From Haladaptatus sp. QDMS2 (GTDB lineage: Archaea; Halobacteriota; Halobacteria; Halobacteriales; Halococcaceae): DNA of 64,000 bases. Where the stretch lies: assembly GCF_029338295.1 (NCBI RefSeq), contig NZ_CP119791.1, positions 2,480,001 to 2,544,000 on the forward strand, in the 5' to 3' direction. Positions within the stretch are counted from its first letter, which is position 1. Every line of letters starts with the position of its first letter. The position numbers and the translations under genes were made by a program. Under the pieces are notes generated by a model that worked only from the letters and a program-made list of their open reading frames with translations, was not told the DNA's origin and ran no database searches. Shown here one piece after another: positions 34,223 to 40,021 of the stretch.

Positions 34223-35938
34223 CTACTGCAAGGCTCGCAGGTCGAATTCGAAGCCAGCGACCGGCAGTTCGAGGCCGTGTTCGACGAGCACCTTCGGGTG
34301 AAGCTCGCCGATGACGCCGACTTCCTCGCCGTCGATGACGACGGCGGCGGTGCGCCCGGCGATGAACGATGGATGTTCCGTGGCCGGGGTTTCGAGGGCA
34401 ACGTCGAACGCGCGACAGAGTGCCTGCAGGCGCGATTTCGCGTCCTCGTAGGACACGTCGTGGCGGGCGAGGACGGCGGCGACGTGGCGTGCTTCTGCGA
34501 CGCGGGTGTTCAGCGAGTCGTCGCGGTGGGCGACGAAGCCGATTTCCGCTAAGTCCTGTGGATAGGCGCGGTGCGTGTTGTTTTCGAGAACCATCAGCAG
34601 CGACGGGAGGTTCCACGTTCGAAGCGTCGTGTACTCCTCGCTGTACGGTTCGGTGATGGTCACGGGCGTTTCCGCACCGAGAGCGTCGTCCGCGGGCGAG
34701 ATGCCCATGCGCTCGAAGTTCTCCACCTCGCTCGTCATGTGGAAGTTGAGCAGGTCCTGGAACCCGAGGCCGACGAGCGTGTCACGGGTGGCGGTTTCGA
34801 GCCGCGAGCGGTCGTGCAGCCCACCCACCGTCGAGACGTCCGGGTACGTCGGTTCGAGTTCGTTGAAGCCGTAGGCCCGCCCGATGTCGTCCACGATGTC
34901 GAGCGGGTGGAGCACGTCCACGCGGTACGGCGGGACCGAAACCTCGTAGACCGGTTCGCCGTCCTGTGTCTCCGTCTCGGCGTCGAGGCCGGCGCGTTCG
35001 AGCAGGTCGACGACCTCTTTCTGGTCTAAGTCGATGCCGAGCAGTTTCTCGATGCGCTCGTGGCTGACCGTCTTTGTCTCGAGTTCGAAGTCGGGACGGA
35101 CGAGTTCGTGGTCGGGGTACTCGACGTTCACCTTCTCGACGGTGCCGCCGCGGGCGTCGAGCGCGTAGCAGATGATGTTGCACATCCGGTCGATGGTCCA
35201 CTGGTCCGTGCCCGTGAGTTCGATGAACAGGTCACGCGAGTCGGTCGAAACCTCCGTCCGGCGGCCGTTGATGACCGGCGGGAACGAGAACAGCCCGATG
35301 TCGTCGTAGATGGCTGGGAAGCGGTCGAGCCCCTCCACGAGGGCTGCGTACTTCTTGCCCGTCTCGTGTTCGGTGAGGACTTCCCGTGGTGTGAGTTCCT
35401 TGTCGGAATCGAGCGCGACGAAGGTCTCCGCGTCCGGGTCCACGCCCTTGTAGGTGATCGATTGATCGCCTGCGCCGTCGGTCGCTTTCGCGCCCTTCAG
35501 CATGGTCAGGTCGTGGACGCCGATTGCGCCCTTGGCGCGTTTGCGGCCCATCGTCGCGTGGAGTTTCTCCTGTAACTGGATGAGCGAGTCGAGGCCGTCC
35601 GCAGAGAGATTCGCGCCACGGACGATTGCACCCGTGACGTAGGGTCGTTCTTCGGGAACCGATTCGTCAACGACGATAGACCAGTCGGCGTCGTTCGTCC
35701 GGGGGACGTACACGCCGCGGTCGTCACCGTACTGGTAGCGCAGCGAGCGGGCGACGCCCTCCACCGAGAGGCGGTCGAGACGGTCCGGGGCGAACTCCAG
35801 TTGGAAGTCGCCGTCGGCTGTTTCGCCCTCGAATTCGAGGCCGAGGCCGAACAGGTCGGTTTTCAGTTCCTCGTCGCTCTTCTCGTCGTGGCCGGTCAGG
35901 CGGCGCAGTTCGTCTGGGTTGACGTCGACAACTGGCAT
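34223..35938 (-). CDS. pheT: phenylalanine-tRNA ligase subunit beta
   Basis: The 571-residue subunit is of the shorter archaeal/eukaryotic type, without the bacterial tRNA-binding N-terminal OB domain. It starts MPVVDVNPDELRRLTG and contains the B3/B4 editing-type region (VTGAIVRGANLSADGLDSLI, then QEKLHATMGRKRAKGAIGVHD), a B5 domain and a catalytic-like core. With the alpha subunit it forms the alpha2beta2 enzyme. Its ATG overlaps the pheS stop codon (TGATG), so the pair is coupled and shares any upstream control. Confidence 0.95.
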   Translation of the reverse strand: MPVVDVNPDELRRLTGHDEKSDEELKTDLFGLGLEFEGETADGDFQLEFAPDRLDRLSVEGVARSLRYQYGDDRGVYVPRTNDADWSIVVDESVPEERPYVTGAIVRGANLSADGLDSLIQLQEKLHATMGRKRAKGAIGVHDLTMLKGAKATDGAGDQSITYKGVDPDAETFVALDSDKELTPREVLTEHETGKKYAALVEGLDRFPAIYDDIGLFSFPPVINGRRTEVSTDSRDLFIELTGTDQWTIDRMCNIICYALDARGGTVEKVNVEYPDHELVRPDFELETKTVSHERIEKLLGIDLDQKEVVDLLERAGLDAETETQDGEPVYEVSVPPYRVDVLHPLDIVDDIGRAYGFNELEPTYPDVSTVGGLHDRSRLETATRDTLVGLGFQDLLNFHMTSEVENFERMGISPADDALGAETPVTITEPYSEEYTTLRTWNLPSLLMVLENNTHRAYPQDLAEIGFVAHRDDSLNTRVAEARHVAAVLARHDVSYEDAKSRLQALCRAFDVALETPATEHPSFIAGRTAAVVIDGEEVGVIGELHPKVLVEHGLELPVAGFEFDLRALQ

Positions 35939-37443
35939 TAGTAGACTACCTCCACGTTCCGCAGCAGGTCAAGGTCACAGAGCGTGCCGTGAACGTCGCG
36001 GATATCTTCGAATCCGTGCATCAACATGAGCAGGCGTTCTAAGGCGAGGCCCCACGCCATGACGTCGCACTCGACGCCGAGTGGGTCGAGCACCTCGCGG
36101 CGGAAGATGCCGCTGTTCCCGATTTCGATGATTTCACCCGTCTCCGGGTGGCGACCGAACAGTTCAAAACTCGGCTCCGTGTACGGGTTGTAGTGGGGTT
36201 TGAATTCGAGGTCGGTGATACCGAACTGCTCGTAGAACTCGGTGAACGTGCCCATCAGGTCGCGCACCGAGAGGTCCTCGGCCATGACCCAGCCCTCAAT
36301 CTGGTAGAATTCGAGTAGGTGCGTCGGGTCGAGCGTGTCGTTGCGGTACACCTTCTCGACGGAGAAGTACCGGGCCGGTTCTTCGAGTTTGCCGATTTCG
36401 TGGCCGGAGAGATACCGCATCGAGAGCGAGGTGGTGTGCCCGCGAAGGTCGATAGAGCGCGCCACGTCCTCGGTCCACGGCGAGTGGTACCCCTCGCCGT
36501 CCTCGCCCGCGCCGTACAGGTGGGCGTCGTGGACGCGTTCGAGCAGGTCCTCGGGGAGGTCCTCCATCGGCGGCACGTCTAAGGCGAACTGGTCCCAGTG
36601 GGTGCGCGCCGGGTGGTCCTGTGGCATGAACAGGCAGTCGTTGATCCAGAACTCGCTGTCCGCGTGCGGGCCTTCCATCTCCTGGAAGCCCATGCCGACG
36701 AGCACGTCCTTGACGCGGTTTGCCGTCTGGCGCAGGATGTGTTCTTTGCCGCCGCGATACACTTCGGCGTCAGCCTCGACGTTGTACTCGGCGAAATCGA
36801 CGTCCTGCCACTCGCCAGAAGTGAGCATCTCGGTCGTGAGACGGCCAACGGTTTCTGCGACTTCGACGCCGGCCATCAGCGCGTCCACGCCCTCGTCCGT
36901 GAGCAGCACGGAGCGAATCGTCGATTCAGAAATCTCGACGAGGTCACGACGTTCGAGTTGCGAGAGGACGTCGCCATCCGCGACAGAATCGCCCGCGACG
37001 AGCGCGGCGAGTGCGTTCGCCTCGTCGTCGGCGTCGGGGTCGGCGTCCGGGTTCACGGACACCGCACCGCTGTCGATGGAGCCGTAGCCCTTGCGAGCGA
37101 AATTAGAGAGCGCGATGTTCACCTGTGGGCCGCCGAGGCTGGATGCACCGATGATGCGGCCCATCTCAACGGGTCCCTCGTCAGCACCCTGTTCGAGCGC
37201 GGCCTCGTAGAGACGAATTTCGGGGAGCCCCTCTGTTGCGTATTCTTCGCCTTCGTCGGTGACGGAAACCGCCTCTGTCGTCTCCTCGGAGACGGTGACG
37301 AGTCCCTCGGCTTCGAGGGCGAACGCGGCCCCGGCGACCGTCTCTTCGGGGAGTTCTGTGGCTTCCGCCAGTTGGTCGAGCGTCTGTGCCTCTGTGGCGG
37401 ACGCGGCCTCTAAGACCGCGACCTGTGGTTCGGGTAATCTCAT
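35938..37443 (-). CDS. pheS: phenylalanine-tRNA ligase subunit alpha
   Basis: The 501-residue subunit has an N-terminal winged-helix region (about 1-90) of the archaeal/eukaryotic type and the class II catalytic domain. Motif 2 is seen near SVEKVYRNDTLDPTHLLEFY and motif 3 as VMAWGLALERLLMLMHGFED. It activates phenylalanine. No ribosome-binding site and no TATA at the usual distance lie before its ATG at 37443. The nearest good promoter is about 180 nt upstream, at a Phe-rich leader ORF. Confidence 0.95.
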   Translation of the reverse strand: MRLPEPQVAVLEAASATEAQTLDQLAEATELPEETVAGAAFALEAEGLVTVSEETTEAVSVTDEGEEYATEGLPEIRLYEAALEQGADEGPVEMGRIIGASSLGGPQVNIALSNFARKGYGSIDSGAVSVNPDADPDADDEANALAALVAGDSVADGDVLSQLERRDLVEISESTIRSVLLTDEGVDALMAGVEVAETVGRLTTEMLTSGEWQDVDFAEYNVEADAEVYRGGKEHILRQTANRVKDVLVGMGFQEMEGPHADSEFWINDCLFMPQDHPARTHWDQFALDVPPMEDLPEDLLERVHDAHLYGAGEDGEGYHSPWTEDVARSIDLRGHTTSLSMRYLSGHEIGKLEEPARYFSVEKVYRNDTLDPTHLLEFYQIEGWVMAEDLSVRDLMGTFTEFYEQFGITDLEFKPHYNPYTEPSFELFGRHPETGEIIEIGNSGIFRREVLDPLGVECDVMAWGLALERLLMLMHGFEDIRDVHGTLCDLDLLRNVEVVY

Positions 37444-37545
37444 TATTGCTTGTTGTCGCGTACACTGCCAGCAAGTCAGTTAGCGGTTCCGAATACACCC
37501 ACGTCGGTTTCCTCGAGCCCGGAGGCCGGATTCCACCGTCGCGTC

Positions 37546-37623
37546 TCAGAACCGAAAAAAGCCGAACCCAGCGGTCCGCAGGGAGTCGTCGCCGGTCAAC
37601 ACTGGCGTGGGTTCGGTAGCCAT
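37546..37623 (-). CDS. Phe-rich leader peptide of pheST (proposed)
   Basis: The 25-residue ORF starts at the ATG at 37623 and stops at 37546. Its last residues read Gly-Phe-Gly-Phe-Phe-Arg-Phe, with Phe at positions 20, 22, 23 and 25 and nowhere else. It lies on the pheST strand, 102 nt before pheS. A TTTTTTA element about 28 nt upstream implies a leaderless mRNA beginning at this ATG. The composition mirrors the pheST leader peptides of enteric bacteria, where ribosome stalling on Phe codons controls the operon. Function is inferred and conservation is untested. Confidence 0.6.
   Translation of the reverse strand: MATEPTPVLTGDDSLRTAGFGFFRF
37562..37616 (-). promoter_or_regulatory. attenuator-like stem in the pheST leader
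   Basis: In the transcript CCGAACCCA pairs perfectly with TGGGTTCGG (9 bp, arms 37608-37616 and 37562-37570), followed one nucleotide later by six U. A smaller hairpin (37590-37607) sits in its loop. The 5' arm can pair instead with CGTGGGT at 37497-37503 (7 bp), so two structures exclude each other. The U-run itself encodes Phe-Phe. Confidence 0.5.
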
Positions 37624-37646
37624 ACCCGGTGATACGAGCGGATTCG

Positions 37647-37655
37647 CTAAAAAAC
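37647..37655 (-). promoter_or_regulatory. TATA-like box of the pheST leader
   Basis: On the minus strand GTTTTTTAG is centred about 28 nt before the leader ATG at 37623. No comparable element precedes pheS itself. The rest of the 361-nt gap 37444-37804 holds the leader and, at 37738-37750, an AT-rich stretch that may serve the plus-strand methyltransferase gene. Confidence 0.5.
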
Positions 37656-37804
37656 GTTCCGGACACCGCGTATGCCCAGCGTGCATACCCGTTCTTACGA
37701 CTCATTACAGGAGAGTATTGACGTTACCGGTATGTTGAAATAATACTTTTCTGCCCACCAGTGCTACCGTGTGACCACCAACCGGGCAGTCCGGGTTTCG
37801 CACA

Positions 37805-38485
37805 ATGAACGCAACGTACGCAGACGAGACGGTAATCGAATGGAACGAGTTCTACGAAAACGGCGAGTACGAGCGCATCGCCTACATCGGCGAGGAAGCG
37901 ATGCCGAAACTCCTCCACCGCTTCTTCGAGCGCCACGGTGCACCTGGGAGTTTCGCCTCCATCGGGTGTGGCCCGGCGGCCGCGGAGTTCGACCTCGCCC
38001 CGGATTACCCGAACACCGAGTTCTACGGCTACGACATCTCACAGGCCGTCATCGACGACAACGCGGCCCACGCCGCGAGAGAAAAGCTCGACAACATGCA
38101 CTTCGACGTGGCGAGTCTTCCGAACCTCGGCATCGACCGGCAGTTCGACGTGGTGTACTGCCTCGCCACGCTCTACTTCGTCGATGGTGTCGATAAGTCA
38201 GTGAAAGCGCTATACAACCTCGTCGAGCCGGGTGGCTACCTCATCTTCAACTACCCCAACCGCTACACGATGTGGACGTTCGACGAGGCGTTCGAGGGGT
38301 CCCGCCGCGACCTGTTCCACCGGGTCGTGGAGGGGAAGAACCTGCTCTCCTACGAACGCATCCGCAACCTCCTCGGGGCGAACCCGCGGAGCTACTGGAC
38401 GTTCATGGACGCCGCAGACCTGCCGTTCGTCGGTCGGGACACGCCGTGTGTCTATCTTCGAAAACCGCTCGAAAACGAGGATTGA
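37805..38485 (+). CDS. class I SAM-dependent methyltransferase
   Basis: The 226-residue protein has the class I fold. FASIGCGPAAAEFDLA is motif I (SAM-binding GxGxx), EFYGYDISQAVIDD supplies the acidic residue for the ribose, and VVYCLATLYFVDGVDKSVKA and LVEPGGYLIFNYPN are motifs II and III. No substrate-recognition domain is evident. It is divergent from the pheST operon. Substrate unknown. Confidence 0.88.
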   Translation: MNATYADETVIEWNEFYENGEYERIAYIGEEAMPKLLHRFFERHGAPGSFASIGCGPAAAEFDLAPDYPNTEFYGYDISQAVIDDNAAHAAREKLDNMHFDVASLPNLGIDRQFDVVYCLATLYFVDGVDKSVKALYNLVEPGGYLIFNYPNRYTMWTFDEAFEGSRRDLFHRVVEGKNLLSYERIRNLLGANPRSYWTFMDAADLPFVGRDTPCVYLRKPLENED

Positions 38486-38488
38486 GAG

Positions 38489-40021
38489 TTAGCGACGCGG
38501 CGACGTGAGTTCGATGTCCGCCTCTTCGAGCAAGTGTTCGACCTCGGCGCGCTTCTCCTGATGCTCTGCTAAGAACTCTTTCATCAGTTTTGCGGCCTGT
38601 TCCTTACAACCGCCACAGAGGCGTTCGCCGCCGACACACTCGTCGTAGACTTTCTTCGCGAAGGCGTCGTCGTCGGCCGCGAGCAGGTAAGCGTAGAGTT
38701 CGTACACCGGACACTTGTCCGCCTCGCCACCGAGTCGGCGCTGCTCTTCGGCCGTCGAGCGACCACCGGTCGTCGCGGATTTCACCTTGTCGTAGCCGTC
38801 CTGTGGGTCGTCGAGCAGGCTGATGTGGCTCGCCGGAATCGAGGAGGACATTTTGCCACCGGTGAGGCCCGTCATGAAGCGGTGGTAAATCGAGGATGGG
38901 GCGTAGAAGCCGTACCCACCGTTCTCGATTTCGATTTTCCGGGCGAGCTCTTCTGCCTCCTCGCGGGTAAGTTCGAACGAGTCGATGTGCTCGTCGTAGA
39001 CGCGCTTTTCGCCTTCCACGGCCTCGATGAGCGCGTCGAAGGCTTCCGGCGTGGCGTTTCGGTCCACGAATCGGACGCGCGGTTCGATTGGTTCCTTCCC
39101 GGCCGAATCGAGTTTGGCGACCACGCTGTCGAAGCCATCGCCGTCGGGATTACCGTGTTCGCGAAGCCACGCAGCGGCGTCCTCACAGCGGACGGTTTCG
39201 CCGTCGTCGGCAGAGAGCGCGCCGTAGGCGGCTCCGAGGAGTTCTCGCTCTGCGTCGTCCGCCTCGAAACTCGCGAAGGCCTTGGTCACGCCAAAGTAGC
39301 GCATCCGGGCGGCGAGGTCACGGGCCAGTCGGACGTGGGGGTCCTGGTCGGGGCCGACCGGGATGACCGTCGGCTTTGGCTCGTCGAGTTGCGGGTAGAG
39401 GATGTCCGCCATCTGCGTGACGACGCTCTGCATGTGCGAAACGTCCGTCTCGCCGTCGAAGCCGTAGATGTTCTCCAGTTCGGAGAAGTTGGCCTTGATG
39501 CCGAGTTCGAACGCGAGGTCCTGCAGTTCGCGGTTGTCTGACTGTCGGTAGAGTTCGCCCGCCTCGGGGTCGAAGCCGAGGGCGAGCAGGCTCAGCAGGT
39601 AGTCGCGAGCGTGTTCGTCGATTTCCTCCCACGAGAGACCGCGGGCGGAGTGGGCTTCTAAGTCAGCAATCAGGGCGTAGGCGTCTGCGCCCTGCTGTTG
39701 GTGCCAGATTATCTCGTCGAAGACGAGTTTGTGACCGATGTGCGGGTCGCCCGTCGGCATGAACCCCGAGAGCGCGGCCGTTGGCTTGCCCGCAGCCATC
39801 GCCTCGAGGACGGCGCGGTAGTCGCGGTGGCCGAAGATGACGCCCCGACGCATCAGGTAGTGTGGATTTTCGACGTCGGGAAGCACCTCGTCGAACTCCT
39901 CGATGCCGAACTCCTCGAACAGTTTTCGGTAATCCGCGATGGTCGACGAACCCCACGGGTCGAGCGTCGTCGCATCTGTTTCGTCCGCTGCTCCCGTGTC
40001 GTGTTCTGAATCGCGTGTCAT
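38489..40021 (-). CDS. trpS: tryptophan-tRNA ligase
   Basis: The 510-residue class I synthetase has HIGH at 94-97 (GDPHIGHKLVFDEI) and KMSSS near 391 (GGKMSSSIPAS). It is longer than bacterial TrpRS because of archaeal/eukaryotic N-terminal elements and a central insertion of about 90 residues (about 238-325) typical of haloarchaea. Its ATG overlaps the endA stop by 4 nt, which ties synthesis of TrpRS to the splicing enzyme that matures intron-containing haloarchaeal tRNA-Trp. Confidence 0.95.
   Translation of the reverse strand: MTRDSEHDTGAADETDATTLDPWGSSTIADYRKLFEEFGIEEFDEVLPDVENPHYLMRRGVIFGHRDYRAVLEAMAAGKPTAALSGFMPTGDPHIGHKLVFDEIIWHQQQGADAYALIADLEAHSARGLSWEEIDEHARDYLLSLLALGFDPEAGELYRQSDNRELQDLAFELGIKANFSELENIYGFDGETDVSHMQSVVTQMADILYPQLDEPKPTVIPVGPDQDPHVRLARDLAARMRYFGVTKAFASFEADDAERELLGAAYGALSADDGETVRCEDAAAWLREHGNPDGDGFDSVVAKLDSAGKEPIEPRVRFVDRNATPEAFDALIEAVEGEKRVYDEHIDSFELTREEAEELARKIEIENGGYGFYAPSSIYHRFMTGLTGGKMSSSIPASHISLLDDPQDGYDKVKSATTGGRSTAEEQRRLGGEADKCPVYELYAYLLAADDDAFAKKVYDECVGGERLCGGCKEQAAKLMKEFLAEHQEKRAEVEHLLEEADIELTSPRR

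Follow-up and report, generated by a model that had tools for sequence, protein, structure and literature searches.

The genes for phenylalanine--tRNA ligase (pheST) in Haladaptatus sp. QDMS2 are preceded by a short leader-peptide ORF whose phenylalanine codons are clustered near its end. From comparison with related genomes, we consider it likely that this leader forms a ribosome-mediated pheST attenuator which senses charged tRNA-Phe. The analysis follows up an original prediction made from the sequence of the window (the whole 64,000-nucleotide stretch of DNA presented above), and that prediction is partly supported. Its core, that pheST is controlled by a leaderless Phe leader peptide with a functional stem, draws support from conservation, from covariation, from cognate specificity relative to the trpS2 and metG leaders and from the published 5'-end map of Haloferax volcanii, while the pairing switch that it proposed found no support among relatives.

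The leader, its promoter and its conservation

Re-reading of the window sequence returned the predicted coordinates of the Phe-rich ORF (37623-37546, minus strand, 25 codons, MATEPTPVLTGDDSLRTAGFGFFRF*), in which Phe occupies codons 20, 22, 23 and 25 and no others. A gap of 102 nt separates the leader stop from the pheS ATG (37443) on the same strand. The identity of the downstream genes, pheS and an archaeal pheT, was confirmed by NCBIfam matches. The features of the locus are given below in the order of transcription.

37646..37660, minus strand: leader promoter P1, GGAACGTTTTTTAGC (BRE plus TATA-like T-run); T-run 31 nt before the ATG
37546..37623, minus strand: leader-peptide ORF, 25 codons, MATEPTPVLTGDDSLRTAGFGFFRF; kept in 75/80 pheS loci, with the frame preserved in model-detected loci
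37608..37616, minus strand: arm A of hairpin 1, CCGAACCCA, codons 3-6; covaries with arm B
37562..37570, minus strand: arm B of hairpin 1, TGGGTTCGG, Ala-Gly-Phe-Gly codons; covaries with arm A
37549..37566, minus strand: putative sensor Phe codons 20, 22, 23 and 25; Phe cluster conserved
37555..37560, minus strand: U6 tract from Phe codons 22-23, immediately 3' of the hairpin 1 stem; more U-tracts across leaders than codon usage predicts
37535..37543, minus strand: arm C of hairpin 2, CGCGACGGU, just past the stop codon; C:D covariation, one A.A mismatch in the window (manual pairing)
37532..37534, minus strand: invariant GGA, 5' side of the internal loop (YGGA/GAAA)
37508..37511, minus strand: invariant GAAA, 3' side of the internal loop
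37500..37508, minus strand: arm D of hairpin 2, ACCGACGUG; C:D covariation
37479..37490, minus strand: promoter-like block GGAACCGCTAAC (possible P2), about 41 nt before pheS; conserved
35938..37443, minus strand: pheS, phenylalanine--tRNA ligase alpha subunit; NCBIfam NF003210, 582 bits
34223..35938, minus strand: pheT, phenylalanine--tRNA ligase beta subunit (archaeal); TIGR00471, 454 bits

The TTTTTTA promoter element noted in the original prediction is present and begins 31 nt upstream of the leader ATG. Its spacing is conserved, as the T-run starts 29-31 nt before the leader ATG in 72/73 loci scored (consensus CGCAACGYTTTT) and is preceded across loci by CGCAACG. This distance between P1 and the ATG fits a leaderless haloarchaeal transcript. 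A published dRNA-seq study of Hfx. volcanii (PMC4983044) lists a 26-aa uORF of pI 5.9 before HVO_2948 pheS among the 5'-UTRs of 150-250 nt (Table 2), and several sister Haloferax species carry a leader of 26 aa and pI 5.94 that starts 212 nt before pheS. The mass given there for the Hfx. volcanii uORF (2772) is slightly unlike those of the sister-species leaders, the comparison being one with relatives only. By the published TSS map (PMC4983044), the leader ORF and pheS of Hfx. volcanii lie on one transcript; for other species this follows by homology only.

It had also been predicted that pheS has neither a promoter nor a ribosome site of its own. The latter statement held, as no Shine-Dalgarno sequence is present, while the promoter-like block GGAACCGCTAAC leaves the absence of a promoter uncertain. 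Across loci the block (CGGAACCGCTAAC) is conserved some 41 nt upstream of pheS, in most cases with AAC 40-44 nt ahead of the ATG, and it is kept also in the leader-less loci L077, L080, L028 and L042. One possibility is a second promoter, weak or conditional, that could provide a bypass of the leader. The Hfx. volcanii data (PMC4983044) record no additional TSS at pheS itself, the promoter-like block included.

The original prediction had suggested comparing the DNA upstream of pheS among haloarchaea, and this comparison found the Phe-rich leader in 75/80 loci and the element as modelled below in 237/292 genomes. Of the haloarchaeal pheS loci, 80 were retrieved; with the window added, 80 had usable upstream DNA, and the 75 leaders scored among them are 23-48 codons long, start with ATG (73) or GTG (2) and usually follow the pattern MA[SPT]E[SP]H...GFGFFFAR*. 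Their stop codons lie 93-347 nt from pheS without frame constraint. A covariance model (R1) built from relatives, with seeds that all bear the ORF, matched the 237 genomes noted above, all from Halobacteria and representing 69/77 genera. A search of the 3.9 Mb genome of the organism itself returned this locus with E = 4.5e-13 and a next best match of 0.64. Outside the class Halobacteria the model gave no match in a phylum sample of 247 genomes, all 32 matched genomes there being Halobacteria. Further matches elsewhere in the genomes, candidates for a second copy, were weak (21-28 bits), lie in coding DNA and look like chance. Some haloarchaea, including several Halorubrum and Halohasta, are without the leader, with losses in Halorubrum californiense (L077), H. 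aidingense (L080), Halohasta (L042) and L028. The distance between the arms of hairpin 1 is 41, 44, 47, 50 or 53 nt, which is a single frame, in 35/35 measurable model-detected loci, a count mildly biased by the ORF-bearing seeds.

Hairpins and codon choice

Arm A (CCGAACCCA, 37616-37608) and arm B (TGGGTTCGG, 37570-37562) form a 9-bp stem without mismatch, and the U6 tract follows one base 3' of it, in agreement with the original description. Among relatives, the A:B covariation score was 0.320 compared with 0.159 for shuffled alignments (0/500 shuffles), 91.5% of cells pair, and the duplex energy was 7.7 sd better than that of permuted partners. Compensatory sets include CCGAAUCC/GGAUUCGG and CCGAACCC/GGGUUCGG, UCGAAUCC/GGAUUCGA in MALES...GFDF leaders and CUCGAACGC/GCGUUCGAG in Halorubrum. 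The hairpin overlaps the sensor codons, the first Phe codon sitting in arm B, and pairing is kept despite loss of a Phe codon in GUCGGACGC/GCGUCCGAC and CCGGACCC/GGGUCCGG. Single-sequence folding of the window RNA was not unusual (z = +1.0) and is uninformative, so the support for the element is comparative rather than thermodynamic.

In most species the leader stop is followed by a second hairpin with a covarying outer stem, an invariant YGGA/GAAA internal loop and a covarying inner stem; the C:D covariation score was 0.446 compared with 0.158 shuffled (0/500 shuffles). The loop sequence suggests three consecutive sheared G.A-type pairs, and the internal loop of hairpin 2 (37500-37543) is possibly a protein site. 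L126 and the genus of L127 and L129 lack hairpin 2 but still have leader and hairpin 1. L129 carries only P1, the leader, hairpin A:B and pheS, which starts about 50 nt past the leader stop. Judged from this arrangement, which lacks hairpin 2, the minimal system would consist of promoter, leader, hairpin 1, Phe codons and pheS. L127 and L129, from a single compact-genome genus, may be regarded as a natural minimal version.

The switch in the original prediction relied on an alternative pairing of arm A with CGTGGGT. This sequence (37503-37497) is part of the 3' arm of hairpin 2, and across 41 relatives the pairing gave no signal (observed -7.36, permuted -7.40 kcal/mol). A B:C antiterminator is 91% complementary but without covariation, and pairing of the leader tail with arm C (GCCCGG/CCGGGC in Natrialbales) is not general (0.9 sd). 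Results from relatives indicate no signal for any of the mutually exclusive pairings B:C, B:D, A:D and leader-tail:C. Since these are unsupported and the comparison favors only A:B and C:D, we do not claim an exclusive-fold switch or membership in the classical two-fold trp/phe-type attenuators.

The 2064 leader codons include 281 Phe codons, nearly all within the last 9 codons. Arm-B Phe is TTC in 69/69 cases, and Phe outside arm B is TTT in 66/212 (31%) compared with 74/1491 (5%) in pheS (p = 6e-27). TTTTTC occurs in 33/75 leaders, where recoding predicts 5.5 and gave at most 14 in 2000 trials, a T-run of at least 4 occurs in 46/75 against 6.6 expected, and Val inside the Phe cluster is GTT in 8/8 cases compared with 4.8% in pheS. 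These TTT, TTTTTC, T-run and GTT biases exceed expectation and argue that the U-tract has been selected in addition to Phe. It cannot be the whole signal everywhere, because a T-run of at least 4 is missing from 29/75 leaders. In the loop codons, third positions do not change more often than the others (668/621/629, 28-codon leaders), which suggests that the middle of the peptide is unconstrained and that conservation is limited to the reading frame, the two arms A and B, and Phe.

Cognate leaders before other synthetase genes

The second TrpRS gene, trpS2, is preceded by leaders such as MVSTSHANCWRWHAFREVDSIAV and MQSAPAWRWRTQTPGADSVGSASGAA, with hairpin arms near the start (GUCCACUUCC/GGAAGUGGAC, GUCUACUUCC/GGAAGUAGAC, GUCCGCUCUCG/CGAGAGCGGAC), and the Hfx. 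volcanii table also has a 23-aa uORF before a TrpRS gene (PMC4983044). At metG, 16/30 loci have leaderless-type ORFs, nearly all with a GTG start and with at least 2 clustered Met codons (mostly MRM or MRMR); a CGGGTGGACC block is conserved past the stop of many of them. The Haladaptatus genome carries all three leaders, the other two lying outside the window on the minus strand: the Trp leader MESAFDWRWPGSRADSFACAGVAA with hairpin GTCCGCTTTCGA/TCGAGAGCGGAC at trpS2 (L181, about 2584.26 kb) and the GTG-start leader VTQTVPFRFSMRM at metG (L188/L200, about 2011.0 kb).

The codons track the downstream gene. Phe clusters were found in 66/80 pheS, 0/38 trpS2 and 0/30 metG loci, W.W leaders in no pheS, 30/38 trpS2 and no metG loci, and M.M leaders in no pheS, no trpS2 and 16/30 metG loci; the Trp and Met patterns were picked after examples had been seen, and the empty off-diagonal cells serve as the fair control. 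The comparison indicates that the element is a class and not a singleton, with Phe, Trp and Met leaders before the matching synthetases. The geometry is not identical, as the cognate codons of the Trp and Met leaders lie in the hairpin loop and not after the hairpin as in the Phe leader; arm B of the Trp and Met leaders may be located past the stop. A crude scan of the other synthetase genes and the chorismate-binding genes of the same genome, where start sites are uncertain, found no further cognate leader.

Proposed mechanism, alternatives and relation to known systems

Sequence comparison gives an anatomy in which a leaderless mRNA begins at the leader ATG, A pairs with B, the Phe-codon U-run follows at once and the stop comes a few codons on, usually with a second hairpin between the stop and pheS. 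We propose that the delay of the ribosome on the cognate codons would be the signal. With ample Phe-tRNA, the leader ribosome would finish and leave, A:B would close and the Phe-encoded U-tract would be exposed; RNA 3'-end formation at the exposed tract, probably by aCPSF1/FttA, would then end transcription before pheS. With scarce Phe-tRNA, the ribosome would be held on the Phe codons, keeping A:B open and the U-tract covered, and RNA polymerase would read on into pheST. Hairpin C:D may serve to pause RNA polymerase, holding it near until the ribosome comes, and would be dispensable since some lineages are without it.

Because the polymerase passes the U-tract before the ribosome decodes the same Phe codons, Phe sensing needs an event after U-tract synthesis. 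Purely intrinsic U-tract termination could not report on Phe, while a later event, such as nascent-RNA cleavage by aCPSF1/FttA, can. In a reporter in Hfx. volcanii, 95% of transcripts are terminated by a T5C sequence (PMC7237163), aCPSF1 of Methanococcus recognizes U-tracts through its KH domains and cuts farther downstream (PMC8716108), and the exclusion of aCPSF1 by coupled ribosomes has already been proposed (PMC8116511). The U-run within the ORF as an aCPSF1/FttA site is the most plausible part of the mechanism originally offered; the aCPSF1/FttA-masking step by itself would be a possible route on which we place somewhat less than even weight. With similar reserve we put forward a tentative general idea: haloarchaea would have evolved leader-peptide attenuators of their own that respond to tRNA charging, at no fewer than three synthetase genes (pheST, trpS2, metG). 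In these, a 5'-terminal hairpin would fold the leaderless uORF back on itself; in the Phe case, the sensor codons would double as an aCPSF1/FttA-type terminator U-tract and the ribosome would guard the termination signal that it translates.

The main rival to this attenuator places the readout in translation or mRNA stability, with a stalled leader ribosome altering pheS translation or the decay of the leadered mRNA and transcription termination not involved, as at bacterial erm leaders. Such control seems rather unlikely to us, yet it deserves serious weight: no covarying antiterminator was found, A:B lies at the extreme 5' end of a leaderless mRNA where it would affect re-initiation or 5' decay, and in L129 pheS follows closely on the leader stop. 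The U-tract bias beyond Phe coding suggests instead an RNA 3'-end signal, and the widely varying, frame-free distance from stop to pheS speaks against direct coupling to pheS initiation. These readouts overlap with the general attenuator reading, as the leader ribosome would still be the sensor.

A cis-acting RNA site recognized by a protein, such as PheRS in autoregulation or a factor bound to the YGGA/GAAA hairpin, would account for the invariant loop and covarying stems of hairpin 2 and make the ORF incidental; it appears improbable given that the Phe codons and the open frame persist through TTC/TTT exchanges and through indels by multiples of three, that L126 and L129 keep the Phe leader without hairpin 2, and that cognate codons track the downstream synthetase. 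Still less probable is a functional micropeptide. In its favor are the conservation of the ORF and the mapping of its transcript in Hfx. volcanii (PMC4983044), but the loop codons lack a third-position excess, the length varies freely and the residue conservation is accounted for by Phe and by the demands of arms A and B. The combination of a chance ORF and a chance stem in GC-rich DNA, with which the insignificant single-sequence fold would agree, is already refuted by comparative data (conservation and covariation in 237/292 genomes and the 3x3 specificity) and carries practically no weight.

Leader-peptide attenuation is textbook bacterial regulation. Enterobacterial pheMST (pheM) and pheA have a Phe-rich short leader peptide, with the position of the ribosome on the Phe codons as the proposed sensor, and haloarchaeal pheST is likewise preceded by a short leader peptide rich in Phe codons. 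The haloarchaeal element differs in having no supported antiterminator pairing, in its leaderless archaeal mRNA and in the placement of its Phe codons at the 3' base of hairpin 1, where they form a U-tract within the ORF. In tnaC-type attenuation a stalled ribosome excludes Rho; a ribosome held on the haloarchaeal leader would similarly mask the RNA site of a termination factor, but the proposed factor is aCPSF1/FttA and the stall would come from missing charged tRNA rather than from a free amino acid. T-box leaders regulate Gram-positive aaRS genes according to tRNA charging by direct tRNA binding, whereas haloarchaeal sensing would be via the ribosome; Rfam models, including the T-box model, gave no match in window positions 36000-39000 at E up to 1.

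The same pheS uORF (26 aa) and the TrpRS one (23 aa) appear in Table 2 of Babski et al. 2016, where the section consulted lists the uORFs and says nothing of their Phe or Trp codons, of hairpins or of conservation and regulation (PMC4983044). As far as found, no earlier description of an archaeal amino-acid attenuator exists in the open-access literature, to which the search was confined. If the proposal is true, archaea sense tRNA charging by transcription-translation coupling on leaderless mRNAs with a eukaryote-like termination factor, a testable system is at hand in the genetically tractable Haloferax volcanii, and some unexplained haloarchaeal short uORFs and 5' RNAs gain a candidate role.

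In the window, a class I methyltransferase-like gene with weak BioC/UbiG-type matches (37805-38485, plus strand) is divergent from the leader promoter and lies between trpS and pheST.
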